42,486 nucleotides of DNA, taken from assembly GCA_020851595.1 (NCBI GenBank), contig JADZCK010000026.1, positions 1 to 42,486 of the forward strand, given 5' to 3'. Below, in pieces: positions 2,151-10,040 of this stretch (position 1 is its first letter; every line of letters starts with the position of its first letter). The stretch comes from Candidatus Nomurabacteria bacterium (GTDB lineage: Bacteria; Patescibacteriota; Minisyncoccia; Phycocordibacterales; UBA9973). The position numbers and the translations under genes were made by a program. The notes under the pieces were generated by a model, which saw only the letters and a program-made list of their open reading frames with translations, was not told the origin of the DNA and made no database searches.

Positions 2151-3818
2151 TTAAAAACTCCTCACAGCACGAACAAGATACTGGCTGACTTTACCACCAC
2201 CACCATCAGTACCATCAAAAAAGAATCTAACATGCGCACTAGAATTATTAATCTCCGATGAACTCCAATAGAAGTAATTTAAAAATCCACCAATTGCCAT
2301 CCTATTTAAATAAAGCTTAGACAATTCATCCCTACTCGGCAAATACCAGTCAGAATATCCCCCACCAGTATAAGCTCGAGCGACACCAGCAGCATAGCTT
2401 GTGGTAACTGCCCCTTGTGATGTAATTATCGTATCAGTATTTGTTAATCCTGTACCAATAACAGTGCCTGTTGCATTTGTTGTTATGTCACTCCCATTGT
2501 TCCAACGTATAATACTTCCTTGATCAGCCGTAGCCGCAATCAATCCATGGGTTTCTCCTGATACATATCCTAGATCTCCAGATTGTAAAATATATGCAAT
2601 AATTCCACCTTGATAACTGACACCCACAGCTAAAACTGTCTCCGGAAACACCGCTGTAATTACTCCAGAATTAATTGGATTCGTAGCACTCGTTGCTCCA
2701 GCTATGGTGAATTGATTAGCTGTTACTCCAGTTAGGGTATAACCAGCAGTTGGAGTGATGGTTATAGTAGCCGTGTAAATAGTGTTTGAAGCAAACGTTA
2801 CAGGACTTCCACTCCAAGTAACAGTACCGGTATAACCTGTGCCAGCAGTTACAGTGGTTACAGGGGTAGCTCCAGTAACCGGTGGTGTAACACCAGCAAT
2901 AGCTGCGGTATTGATTGTAGTATCCGTCACAGGAAACACCGCGCTCACTACTCCAGAATCAGCACTATTCGTAGCCGTCGCTCCAGCAACAGTAAAGAAG
3001 TTTGCTGGGACACCAGATAAGGTGTAACCGGTTTTAGGAGTGATAGTAATAGTAGCAGTGTAGATAGTATTTGATGCAAAAGTTACAGGATTTGTGTTCC
3101 AAGATATGGTAGCGGTATATTCTGTAGTATCAGCTATGGTAGCGGTAGGGGTAGCTCCAGTAACAGGAGCTGTCACTCCAGCGATAGCTGCGGTAGCGAT
3201 AGTGGGTATGAATGTAGCTGTGATTGATTTGTCATTAGTAACGTTAGTATCTGTTCTAGTAGCTGTTAGAACTCCATCACTCCAAATATCAAACACATAA
3301 CCAGTATCTGGAGTAGCGGTTACAGCAGAACCATTATTTCCACTATTAATTCGCTGAGAAGCTATCCCAGTGATAGAACCACCCGTACCGGCTGTGTACG
3401 AAAGAGAATAAGTGGTGATGTGAATTCCACCGCCTCTTTGAAAGGTTTGAGTTCTAGGTATGGATATAGTATTAGGAGTACAAGATTTACCTGTGATTGT
3501 ATTAAATAGTTCTCCTTGTGTGCAAGGTTGCTTAATTTCTTTCTTATTGAGCAAATCTCTAGTTAACTTCCCTACTATTCCATCTCCTTTTAGATTGTTT
3601 GAAGTTTGGAAAGTAATGACTGATGTTTTAGTGTTTTTACCAAACTTTCCATCTGCTGTTATGTTTAGTTTTTGTTGGAGACATTGTACTTGTTCTCCTT
3701 TCATACTTTGCTTGAGTGTTACGGTAAGAACACAATCAGTAGAAGCTTGAGAGAAAGGGGTTAAAGAAAAAAATATTAAAACTAATATTATTACGAGAAT
3801 AAAAAATTTAGATTTCAT
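2151..3818 (-). CDS. Secreted multi-domain surface protein (peptidoglycan-binding, Ig-like repeats, DUF1566/Lcl domain)
   Basis: About 555 residues from the Met at 3818. In order: a signal peptide (MKSKFFILVIILVLIFFSLT), a peptidoglycan-binding-1-like domain (MKGEQVQCLQQKLNITADGKFG, written here as one contiguous family motif in two parts MKGEQVQCLQQKL and NITADGKFG), an InlB B-repeat-like segment (TAGTGGSITG...VFDIWSDG), and two tandem repeats of about 85 residues starting AIAGVT(A/P)PVTGATP. The C-terminus is a DUF1566/Lcl-type domain with WYLPSRDEL, YWSSSE and a final VRAVRSF. This suggests a wall-anchored display or adhesion protein. A G12 tract lies in its promoter, and a -10 box ends 7 nt before the ATG, which is why I chose this start over the upstream Met. 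Confidence 0.8.
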   Translation of the reverse strand: MKSKFFILVIILVLIFFSLTPFSQASTDCVLTVTLKQSMKGEQVQCLQQKLNITADGKFGKNTKTSVITFQTSNNLKGDGIVGKLTRDLLNKKEIKQPCTQGELFNTITGKSCTPNTISIPRTQTFQRGGGIHITTYSLSYTAGTGGSITGIASQRINSGNNGSAVTATPDTGYVFDIWSDGVLTATRTDTNVTNDKSITATFIPTIATAAIAGVTAPVTGATPTATIADTTEYTATISWNTNPVTFASNTIYTATITITPKTGYTLSGVPANFFTVAGATATNSADSGVVSAVFPVTDTTINTAAIAGVTPPVTGATPVTTVTAGTGYTGTVTWSGSPVTFASNTIYTATITITPTAGYTLTGVTANQFTIAGATSATNPINSGVITAVFPETVLAVGVSYQGGIIAYILQSGDLGYVSGETHGLIAATADQGSIIRWNNGSDITTNATGTVIGTGLTNTDTIITSQGAVTTSYAAGVARAYTGGGYSDWYLPSRDELSKLYLNRMAIGGFLNYFYWSSSEINNSSAHVRFFFDGTDGGGGKVSQYLVRAVRSF

Positions 3819-3857
3819 GCTTACAATTATAACCCCCCCCCCCCGAAGATTTTGCAA
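3819..3857 (-). promoter_or_regulatory. Promoter with G12 tract in the -35/-10 spacer, leaderless start
   Basis: On the minus strand: TTGCAA (3852-3857), a 20-nt spacer containing 12 consecutive G (3833-3844 as C on plus), TATAAT (3826-3831), 7 nt, then ATG at 3818. A spacer of 20 nt is longer than the 17-nt optimum; a tract of 9 G would restore it. The arrangement matches promoters switched by slipped-strand mispairing. Confidence 0.6.
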
Positions 3858-3905
3858 ATTTTGGTGGAGATAACTTCGTGATTTTAGATCCCAAAATCTA
3901 ACAAC

Positions 3906-3939
3906 AAAAAATACCCGCAAGAAAATACGGGTATTTTTT
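3906..3939 (-). terminator. Intrinsic terminator of the FKBP-SIMPL genes
   Basis: An 11-bp stem AAAAATACCCG / CGGGTATTTTT (3907-3917, 3928-3938) with a T-run on either strand. It lies just past the SIMPL gene stop. Confidence 0.8.
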
Positions 3940-3962
3940 AATGAGAATATTTAATTTATGAC

Positions 3963-7681: not shown

Positions 7682-8656
7682 TTATCGCATATTTTTAGTT
7701 AGTTTATAAGTATTTCCATGCTTCAACATTCCCAAATACGACTGCTTTGTTTCTTTTCTTGAATTATCTTTCAAACTCTTCAACATTCTTCTTTTTGTCA
7801 CAGTTCTTAATACTCTATGATATGGAAATTGCACCCATCCAAGAAAATCAACTCCAGAAGCAAGAGTTTTAATAAAAACTTTATCTGGATGTATATTTAG
7901 TTTTAATTTGTTTTTTAGATAACCTATCATATATGATAGGTTAAACAAAAGCTCATTTTTGTCTTTAGACAGTATCACAAAATCATCCGCATATCGAACG
8001 TAATATTTTACTTTCAATTCCCTTTTCACAAACTGATCAAATTCATTCATGTAAATGTTTACTAAGAGTTGAGAAGTTAAGTTGCCTAGAGGTAGGCCTA
8101 CTTCCGCTAGGTCTTTCCTAGCGGAGAAGCTATCTATAACTTGTGAAAGTAACCAAATAATATTTTTGTCTTTAATATATTTTGTTAAAACTTGCTTTAA
8201 AATTTCATGATCTATATTCGCAAAAAATTTTCTGATGTCACATTTTAAAACAAAACATGTTTTTGTGTTGTTTTTTGAAACCTTACAAGCAAAATCACGA
8301 AATCTGTTTATCGCTTTATGTGTTCCTTTCATTAGTCTGCATGAATATGAATCAGCGATAAATTTAGAATCAAAATACGGATACAAAATTCTGTAAATTG
8401 CATGGTGCAGAAGTCTGTCTCGGACAGTTGCTTTATGAATATTTCGTGGCTTCGGATCGGATATATTGAAGGCATAATATCCGCCATGAATATAAGTTTT
8501 GTTTTTTAAATCCTGATGCAAAAACAAAAGATTATCTATCACATGCAATTGAAATTCTTGCAAGTCTTTTTTGTTTCGTTTACCACGGAGAAATTCGTTC
8601 CAAGCCAGAAGTAAATTATCAACCGAAATTATTTTTTCAAAAGTTATTGCATTCAT
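7682..8656 (-). CDS. DGR reverse transcriptase
   Basis: 324 residues. It has the RT palm motifs: KCDIRKFFANIDHEIL (first Asp), then GLPLGNLTSQLLVNIYMNEFD, then YVRYADDFVIL with the catalytic YADD. The GNLTSQ form (ending SQ rather than SP) is characteristic of diversity-generating retroelement RTs. A LGW motif follows (GVDFLGWVQ). It should copy TR RNA with adenine-directed errors into cDNA that replaces VR. It is divergent from avd with 14 bp between the starts. A TAGAAT box ends 6 nt before the ATG, predicting a leaderless mRNA, and a G9 tract occupies the upstream spacer. Confidence 0.95.
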   Translation of the reverse strand: MNAITFEKIISVDNLLLAWNEFLRGKRNKKDLQEFQLHVIDNLLFLHQDLKNKTYIHGGYYAFNISDPKPRNIHKATVRDRLLHHAIYRILYPYFDSKFIADSYSCRLMKGTHKAINRFRDFACKVSKNNTKTCFVLKCDIRKFFANIDHEILKQVLTKYIKDKNIIWLLSQVIDSFSARKDLAEVGLPLGNLTSQLLVNIYMNEFDQFVKRELKVKYYVRYADDFVILSKDKNELLFNLSYMIGYLKNKLKLNIHPDKVFIKTLASGVDFLGWVQFPYHRVLRTVTKRRMLKSLKDNSRKETKQSYLGMLKHGNTYKLTKNMR

Positions 8657-8695
8657 GTTATAATTCTACTATGAAGACCCCCCCCCGCAGTTAAA
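8657..8695. promoter_or_regulatory. Overlapping divergent promoters of RT and avd, with C9 tract
   Basis: Plus strand: TATAAT at 8659-8664, 6 nt, then ATG at 8671 (avd). A weak TTCAAA -35 candidate lies at 8636-8641 with a 17-nt spacer. Minus strand: TAGAAT (8663-8668), 6 nt, then ATG at 8656 (RT), with a TTAACT candidate -35 at 8689-8694 across a spacer of 20 nt that includes the C9 tract (8678-8686). The two -10 boxes overlap by 2 bp. Confidence 0.6.
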
Positions 8696-9058
8696 TTATT
8701 GCCAGTTTTGGAAATTTTAAAGTCCGCGTACCTTTTGTGGCAAAACTATTTAGCACTTGTTCCTAAGACTTCAAAATACTCTCTAGGTAAAACGATAGAT
8801 AAATATTTTATTCAGGTGATTGAGAACATCTTGATTGCTAGTTTTTTAGAGAAACAAGAAAAACAGCCATTTGTTAGAAAAGCGATTATTTCGCTGGATA
8901 CTTTGAAATTTATTTTATACATTCTTTGGGGAATTAAAGGAGCAGATGTAAAAAAGTTTACCCAACTTTCTGAAAAACTCGCTGAAGCAGGCAAACAGCT
9001 TGGCGGTTGGCATGGACAGCTCGTAAAACAAAACTCTCCCGCTAAAGGAGAGAAATGA
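8671..9058 (+). pseudogene. avd: DGR accessory variability determinant (Avd), reading frame interrupted at a C9 tract
   Basis: The ORF open from a TTG at 8699 encodes a four-helix-bundle protein of Avd type: LPVLEILKSAYLLWQNY, then PKTSKYSLGKTIDKYF, and near the end LAEAGKQLGGWHGQLV. Avd binds the RT and TR RNA and is needed for cDNA synthesis in studied DGRs. A TATAAT box points to the ATG at 8671, but from there the frame reads only eight codons (MKTPPPRS, stop at 8692) because of nine C at 8678-8686. Eight or eleven C would give one 128- or 129-residue protein. So this is either a phase-variable gene in the off state, an assembly error, or a gene that really starts at TTG. It lies opposite in orientation to RT, TR and target, which is unusual. 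Confidence 0.8.
9034..9052 (-). repeat. Hairpin at the 3' side of the DGR template repeat
   Basis: Perfect 6-bp inverted repeat CTCTCC/GGAGAG (9034-9039, 9047-9052), overlapping the last avd codons. In the TR sense (minus) it begins 12 nt after the TR ends, at the same distance as the larger hairpin next to VR. Confidence 0.5.
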
Positions 9059-9064
9059 AAAGAG

Positions 9065-9175
9065 TTGTGACGGAGACCGGGGTTGTTCGAGTTCCAGTTG
9101 TTATCGAGCCAGTTCCAGTTCAGCACCACCTTGTCGTCGTTCTCGATGAGGTACGGCACGTTGTCGTCCTGGACA
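9065..9175 (-). repeat. DGR template repeat (TR)
   Basis: 111 bp, aligned without gaps to VR at an offset of 469. The 11 mismatches are at 9068, 9092, 9099, 9101, 9113, 9114, 9119, 9132, 9140, 9152 and 9162. Every one is a T on plus, so an A in the minus-strand TR RNA. TR carries about 32 such adenines, so about a third have changed in VR. Read in the target frame, TR is rich in Asn (AAC-type) codons, which maximise replacement variety. It starts 6 nt after the avd stop and lies antisense to avd orientation. Confidence 0.95.
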
Positions 9176-9529: not shown

Positions 9530-10012
9530 TTACTTGCGACGGAGACCGGGGTTGTTCGAGCTCCAGTGGCTATCGAGCCAGCGCCAGATCAGCACCACCT
9601 CGTCGTCGCTCTCGATGAGGCACGGCACGTAGTCGTCCTGGACACCTCGCCACCCGAAGACGACCTTTCCGGCAAAATGCCACCGGAAAAAGTCGATGTC
9701 CTTGGCCTTCACAGCCTCGAGCTCAGCGAGGTCAGCGAAGCTCGAGAGGAGGCCGGTCTCCTGGAGGTGTGCGTAGATCACGCACCCCCGGACGTACCTG
9801 GAACCCTGCTGCTTCTCGTGGAGCCACAGCTCTGTCCGACCCTCGACGATCGCGGTGACGATGTCGCCACCGCGCCGCAGGGAATCCCGGATCCCAATCA
9901 GTCGATCCCGTCCGGCCTGACCGAAGAGAGTGACGTCCTCTGGTGTCCAGTCGGCCGCCGTGAGGGAGTTACCGAGCTGACGCAACTGTCCTGCGGAAAG
10001 AGGTGAAGACAT
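9530..10012 (-). CDS. DGR target protein with C-terminal variable domain
   Basis: 160 residues from the Met at 10012, chosen because AAGGAG lies 7 nt upstream. The N-terminal part (LSAGQLRQLGNSLTAADWTP) resembles a family I recall from many CPR genomes. The C-terminal segment (WRGVQDDYVPCL ... LDSHWSSNNPGLRRK) is the VR and likely forms a C-type-lectin-like binding surface. Residues differing from the TR translation are Y, C, S, E, I, R, S, H, S and R, mostly where TR encodes Asn. No signal peptide is visible, so the protein may act in the cytoplasm or be exported unconventionally. GC content is far above that of its neighbours, which suggests recent transfer. Confidence 0.9.
   Translation of the reverse strand: MSSPLSAGQLRQLGNSLTAADWTPEDVTLFGQAGRDRLIGIRDSLRRGGDIVTAIVEGRTELWLHEKQQGSRYVRGCVIYAHLQETGLLSSFADLAELEAVKAKDIDFFRWHFAGKVVFGWRGVQDDYVPCLIESDDEVVLIWRWLDSHWSSNNPGLRRK
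9534..9644 (-). repeat. DGR variable repeat (VR)
   Basis: The 3'-terminal 111 bp of the target gene, matching TR at 100 of 111 positions. Homology stops within a few bases of the stop codon on one side and at 9644 on the other. In the 40 bp next to the stop codon there are only two substitutions, consistent with a less variable initiation-of-mutagenic-homing end. Confidence 0.95.
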
Positions 10013-10024
10013 GTCTTTCTCCTT

Positions 10025-10040
10025 GTGACACATGTGCCAC
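10025..10040. promoter_or_regulatory. Near-perfect palindrome upstream of the DGR target
   Basis: GTGACACATGTGCCAC pairs at 7 of 8 positions about its centre and abuts the Shine-Dalgarno of the target gene. It could be an operator or a small mRNA hairpin. Confidence 0.4.

Follow-up and report, generated by a model that had tools for sequence, protein, structure and literature searches.

We analysed a 42,486-nucleotide contig (JADZCK010000026.1, assembly GCA_020851595.1) from a Candidatus Nomurabacteria bacterium, a member of the Patescibacteria; this whole stretch is called the window below. It carries a run of 12 guanines (G12) in the promoter of a gene for a surface-type protein and, separately, a diversity-generating retroelement (DGR) whose avd gene begins with a run of nine cytosines. 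It is very probable that a phase-variable promoter spacer of the porA type at G12 and a phase-variable frame switch in avd belong to one genome-wide contingency set. We conclude from the sequences compared that Avd, and hence DGR hypermutation, is likely phase-variable in Patescibacteria, and that the G12 promoter appears to be part of the same repertoire of contingency loci. The observations that carry this conclusion are the geometry of the promoters, the strand specificity of the tracts, their recurrence, a length difference between paralogues, the replacement of one repeat unit by another at avd, and disrupted reading frames in front of a conserved gene body.

A G12 tract in the promoter of a surface-type protein gene

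The original prediction placed G12 between the -35 and -10 elements of a promoter on the minus strand, and re-reading of the coordinates reproduced this geometry exactly. The -35 element TTGCAA (3852–3857) is followed by a 20-nt spacer (3851–3832) that contains G12 (3833–3844), the -10 element TATAAT (3826–3831), 7 nt (3825–3819), and the ATG of the gene (3818–3816), an arrangement with leaderless geometry. The arithmetic by which G9 would give the optimal 17-nt spacer also holds. The window has a single G12, and no such run arose in any of 100 dinucleotide shuffles. Because a strong intrinsic-terminator-like hairpin (3905–3940; -20 kcal/mol, z -7.7) separates the promoter from the upstream gene, the surface-protein gene is expected to have its own promoter. 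Its product (2151–3818, minus strand) had been described as a wall-associated multi-domain protein. Behind a signal peptide recognized by eye, domain searches gave PG_binding_1 and an InlB-B-like repeat, and at the C-terminus Lcl_C/DUF1566, the Lcl_C match falling just under the cut-off (34.8 vs. 34.9). A small plus-strand open reading frame through the complementary C12 was dropped as a candidate gene because, by reading, its frame is not kept in the paralogue described next.

No close orthologue of the surface-protein gene was found among 80 congeners, and the comparison had to be made with a paralogue in the same genome (contig C2). The promoter of this paralogue is identical over ~60 nt, including the -35 element, save for two substitutions and the replacement of G12 by G10, which gives a spacer of 18 nt. 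The N-terminal 203 residues of the two proteins are 69% identical, and the DNA farther upstream of the promoters is unrelated. The paralogue (L022, G000:C2, 9575 onward) has a C-terminus that by eye is FISUMP-like, not Lcl_C; the shared promoter and N-terminus with different C-termini suggest an exchange of C-terminal domains.

G tracts in the genome and the genus

A pattern search of the whole 725,713-base genome revealed eight tracts of at least eight G. The three longest (G12, G10, and G10) all end 0–1 nt before a TATAAT, with the ATG of a gene for a signal-peptide-type protein 6–7 nt away from this box; given a TATAAT frequency of ~0.0004 per position, this is not chance. Three further tracts sit between the avd and reverse transcriptase (RT) genes of DGRs (L002, L005, and L007). 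The remaining two are a G9 tract that starts at the stop codon of an infA-like gene (L003, 1500–1508) and a G8 tract that forms part of one arm of a CCCCCCTGG/CCAGGGGGG inverted repeat close to a contig end (L008, 1475–1510). Across related genomes, the pattern GGGGGGGG-N0-6-TATAAT was found in 3 of 41, and the reversed control pattern in none of the 41.

We then classified 82 distinct tracts from this genome and 20 congeners, which were chosen mostly for having avd genes and whose tracts were sampled as a subset, so that the frequencies are not a genus average. Of 31 tracts of at least nine G outside avd, 18 are followed within 0–3 nt by a TANNNT box on their 3' side, while 2 have one at that distance on the control side (p = 2e-5). 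Many of the genus tracts have a clear -35 element (e.g., TTGACA or TTGCCA) 17–19 nt upstream (L043, L110, L148, L152, L161, L165, L171, L172, and L181), and the members of this promoter class have tract lengths of G8–G13 and spacers of 15–21 nt. The expected porA/fetA-like spacer design is present and recurs, both in the paralogous promoter (G10, spacer 18) and in a strand-specific promoter class across the genus. That G12 forms the spacer of a porA-like phase-variable promoter is well supported at the sequence level.

The genes behind these tract promoters encode surface-type proteins or small proteins of unknown function. The small proteins (~100–200 amino acids) follow promoters of the form TTGAC-N-G8–10-TANNNT (L110, L148, L149, L161, L165, L172, and L181) and possibly represent a class of phase-variable small genes. 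One odd GT-rich contig (G003:C7; L173–L176) has eight tracts of G8 or longer and a poly-G end, and is probably an assembly artefact.

A diversity-generating retroelement with a divergent avd gene

The DGR in the window comprises an RT, a template repeat (TR), a variable repeat (VR), and a divergent avd. The RT gene (7682–8656, minus strand) encodes an LGNLTSQ motif, and the best match of its product among solved structures is a DGR RT (8ub7_A, E 8e-56; the top-ranking group II RT has 3e-32). The TR (9065–9175, minus strand) and VR (9534–9644, minus strand) differ at 11 positions, all of them TR adenines, and the VR lies at the 3' end of the target gene (9530–10033, minus strand), which has no Pfam or NCBIfam match. 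The target gene has a GC content of 62% within surroundings of ~33% and may have been horizontally acquired.

The genome has two other DGRs, on contigs C16 and C38, in which 20 of 20 and 15 of 15 TR/VR differences, respectively, are at TR adenines. The surface-protein gene was ruled out as a remote DGR target, since a genome-wide search paired each of the three TRs with just one VR, inside its own cassette. In a wider set of 136 DGR loci, some of them duplicated, a TR/VR pair was found in 110, and 1830 of 1897 differences were at adenines; as pairs were selected for an adenine bias of at least 85%, this proportion is not an independent measure.

The avd gene lies between the TR and the RT gene, on the strand opposite to the latter (8671–9058, plus strand). 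It runs from a candidate ATG at 8671 through the repeat tract and a conserved body (8687–9055) to a stop codon (9056–9058), and the ATG is out of frame with the body in this assembly. A promoter scan placed a -10 TATAAT (8659–8664) 6 nt from this ATG (TTCAAA-17-TATAAT, with an extended TG). Every Patescibacterial DGR scored (including L188–L267) has its avd in this place, antisense and divergent from the RT gene.

Scores of avd against NF033474 (45.3 and 56.1 bits) and PF22296 (29–36) are under the curated cut-offs of 80 and 40, respectively, although the E-values are significant (1e-6 to 4e-15). A sequence search of avd against solved structures returned no match. The modeled in-frame Avd of the C38 DGR is a four-helix bundle (pLDDT 86.6) like the Avd of BPP-1; it matches the Avd chains of 8ub7 as well as 4dwl (TM 0.73/0.89). 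Since 2gsc and the S23-like 2rld share this fold and score similarly or better, the fold does not settle the assignment by itself; the position within the DGR adds support. On sequence and predicted fold together, the identities of RT and Avd hold.

Slippery repeats at the start of avd

In the window, avd starts as ATGAAGA-C9-GCAGTTAAA. The C9 tract (8678–8686, plus strand) covers codons 3–5, is a candidate translational phase-variation tract, and leaves the conserved body one base out of frame with the ATG. The avd of the C16 DGR is also out of frame, with C9, while that of the C38 DGR is in frame, with C8.

We extended the comparison to avd loci of the family and genus and to 80 named Patescibacteria loci found with an RT alignment, which span Nomurabacteria, Zambryskibacteria, Harrisonbacteria, Moranbacteria, Levybacteria, Woesebacteria, Uhrbacteria, and others. 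Deduplication left 121 loci, 116 of them evaluable. A repeat is present at the start of avd in 107 of these: C7–14 in 93, (CT)n or (CA)n in 13, and (CCAG)n in one. Only 27 of the repeat-bearing genes can be read in frame with an ATG upstream; in another 79 an ATG is present out of frame only, and one gene lacks an ATG. The in-frame share is not distinguishable from one third (p = 0.08). All nine genes that lack a repeat are in frame, vs. 27 of 107 of those that bear one (p = 1e-5). The bodies of close copies, several of them out of frame, have dN/dS values of 0.02–0.12, indicating strong purifying selection in the bodies sampled.

The repeats are largely confined to this site. Of the 62 C/G tracts of 8 nt or longer in 413 kb of DGR loci, 61 sit at the avd start, as do 9 of the 10 dinucleotide repeats with six or more copies. 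Since the C tract can give way to other repeats at this position, what is kept is repetitiveness, not base composition or encoded residues, and this is the signature of a contingency locus. The avd genes combine a non-triplet repeat near the start codon with in-frame and out-of-frame alleles of a conserved body, the alleles coming from different species or paralogues. The tract is absent from more distant DGR-like loci on viral contigs that have co-directional avd-like hits (with weak scores) and from three divergent loci resembling those of the Candidate Phyla Radiation (CPR), and is therefore not a general feature of avd. A search of viral contigs for close strain-level copies gave only 17 relatives, none of them near.

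Read on the RT strand, the C9 tract is a G9 upstream of a -10-like TAGAAT (8663–8668, minus strand), which begins 9 nt downstream of the tract and lies 6 nt from the RT ATG. Across 77 loci, the tract is just upstream of a -10-like box 5–8 nt from the RT ATG in 33, vs. 9 at a control distance, and it abuts the box in 14. One tract could thus have two jobs, as spacer of an RT promoter and as the first codons of avd, so that a single slippage event would reset both together. We put this forward as a hypothesis that is somewhat less likely to be right than wrong, and that is weaker than the avd frame switch.

Proposed mechanism and alternative explanations

We propose that replication slippage in G12 would alter the distance between the -35 and -10 elements and so switch the surface-protein gene between cells, the 20-nt spacer of G12 being probably weak and spacers of 17–18 nt (G9–G10) probably strong. 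In avd, gain or loss of one base in the 5' tract would shift the reading frame and so turn Avd, and with it mutagenic retrohoming, on or off. Contingency tracts would then occur genome-wide, including the avd 5' tract in each of the three DGRs. Avd has been reported as essential for known DGRs (PMC10053308). We infer the same dependence on Avd in these bacteria, together with slippage in living populations and an effect of tract length on transcription.

Several points weigh against this interpretation. Each species is represented by one assembly, so that tract lengths were compared between species or paralogues only, and the surface-protein gene, which lacks a close orthologue in the genus, can be compared only with its paralogue. 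ATG 8671 is a candidate start codon of avd. The dS values in the avd body comparison are near saturation, and the -35 elements are weak in several members of the promoter class. Homopolymer lengths in metagenome assemblies may also err by one base; the di- and tetranucleotide replacements at avd are not explicable by such errors.

Long homopolymers promote slippage of RNA polymerase, and the C tract might act through transcriptional slippage or programmed ribosomal frameshifting, which would yield some Avd at any tract length and set a level rather than a genetic switch. The retention of tracts in nearly all avd genes, though most are out of frame, would fit such a mode of expression. The (CT)n, (CA)n, and (CCAG)n repeats at the same site support replication slippage and are poor substrates for polymerase slippage, and promoter tracts upstream of the expected transcription start leave G12 outside the reach of this explanation, which we regard as unlikely. 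G runs can also form unusual DNA structures, and the regular geometry in which the tracts abut the -10 box would suit a fixed promoter element, such as a G-quadruplex or a regulator site, that does not switch by length. Such an element would have to tolerate lengths from G8 to G13 and spacers from 15 to 21 nt, as well as a difference of two Gs between near-identical paralogous promoters; moreover, a binding site would keep its sequence and not its repetitiveness, and at avd other units replace G/C. We give this reading slightly less weight than slippage or frameshifting during expression.

That the homopolymers are meaningless products of chance, mutation bias or assembly error seems extremely improbable. 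Some G8 tracts elsewhere are clearly incidental, lying inside long genes or in the GT-rich contig, but 61 of the 62 DGR-locus tracts share one position, the promoter tracts have a marked strand asymmetry, and G12 is missing from all shuffles. Such position specificity in independent assemblies speaks against an artefact.

Implications for the control of hypermutation

In the open-licence literature searched, we found no report of repeats in avd, of phase variation of DGRs, or of such phase variation in Patescibacteria. As far as that literature shows, this would be the first repeat-based phase variation of such a kind described for Patescibacteria. To our knowledge, how cells control DGRs, and why these are not constantly mutating, is an open question; an avd frame switch would explain this in a simple and heritable way for one of the largest groups of DGRs. 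Patescibacteria are thought to live on other microbes. If a hypermutator and surface genes are both phase-variable, only a few cells would diversify at once. The state of the avd switch should be readable from existing metagenomes by counting tract lengths. Annotators should be cautious, as avd genes recorded as absent or broken may be in the OFF phase.

Comparison with known systems

Poly-G or poly-C tracts in the -35/-10 spacer are known from porA and fetA of Neisseria and from tp0126 of Treponema pallidum (PMC5320596; PMC7864442). The G12 promoter resembles these in having a homopolymer between the -35 and -10 elements, lengths of ~8–13, a surface-protein gene downstream, and an expected optimum of 17 nt. 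It differs in that the ATG is only 7 nt past the -10 element, in that tract and -10 box adjoin directly in most of the class, and in its host, a Patescibacterium, where switching is predicted. The avd tract shares with the translational contingency loci of Neisseria a repeat in the first codons, mixed frame states, several repeat units at one site, and a conserved body; here, the switched gene is the avd of a DGR, not a surface antigen or restriction-modification gene.

DGR clade 2 is restricted to Patescibacteria (Roux et al., 2021; PMC8144416). Like BPP-1-type DGRs, the element in the window has an RT best matched by 8ub7, adenine-specific TR/VR differences, and an Avd whose C38 paralogue is predicted to be a four-helix bundle. 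Unlike them, it has an antisense avd placed between TR and RT, with the divergent orientation of all scored loci and a 5'-end repeat, whereas phage DGRs have a co-directional avd order.
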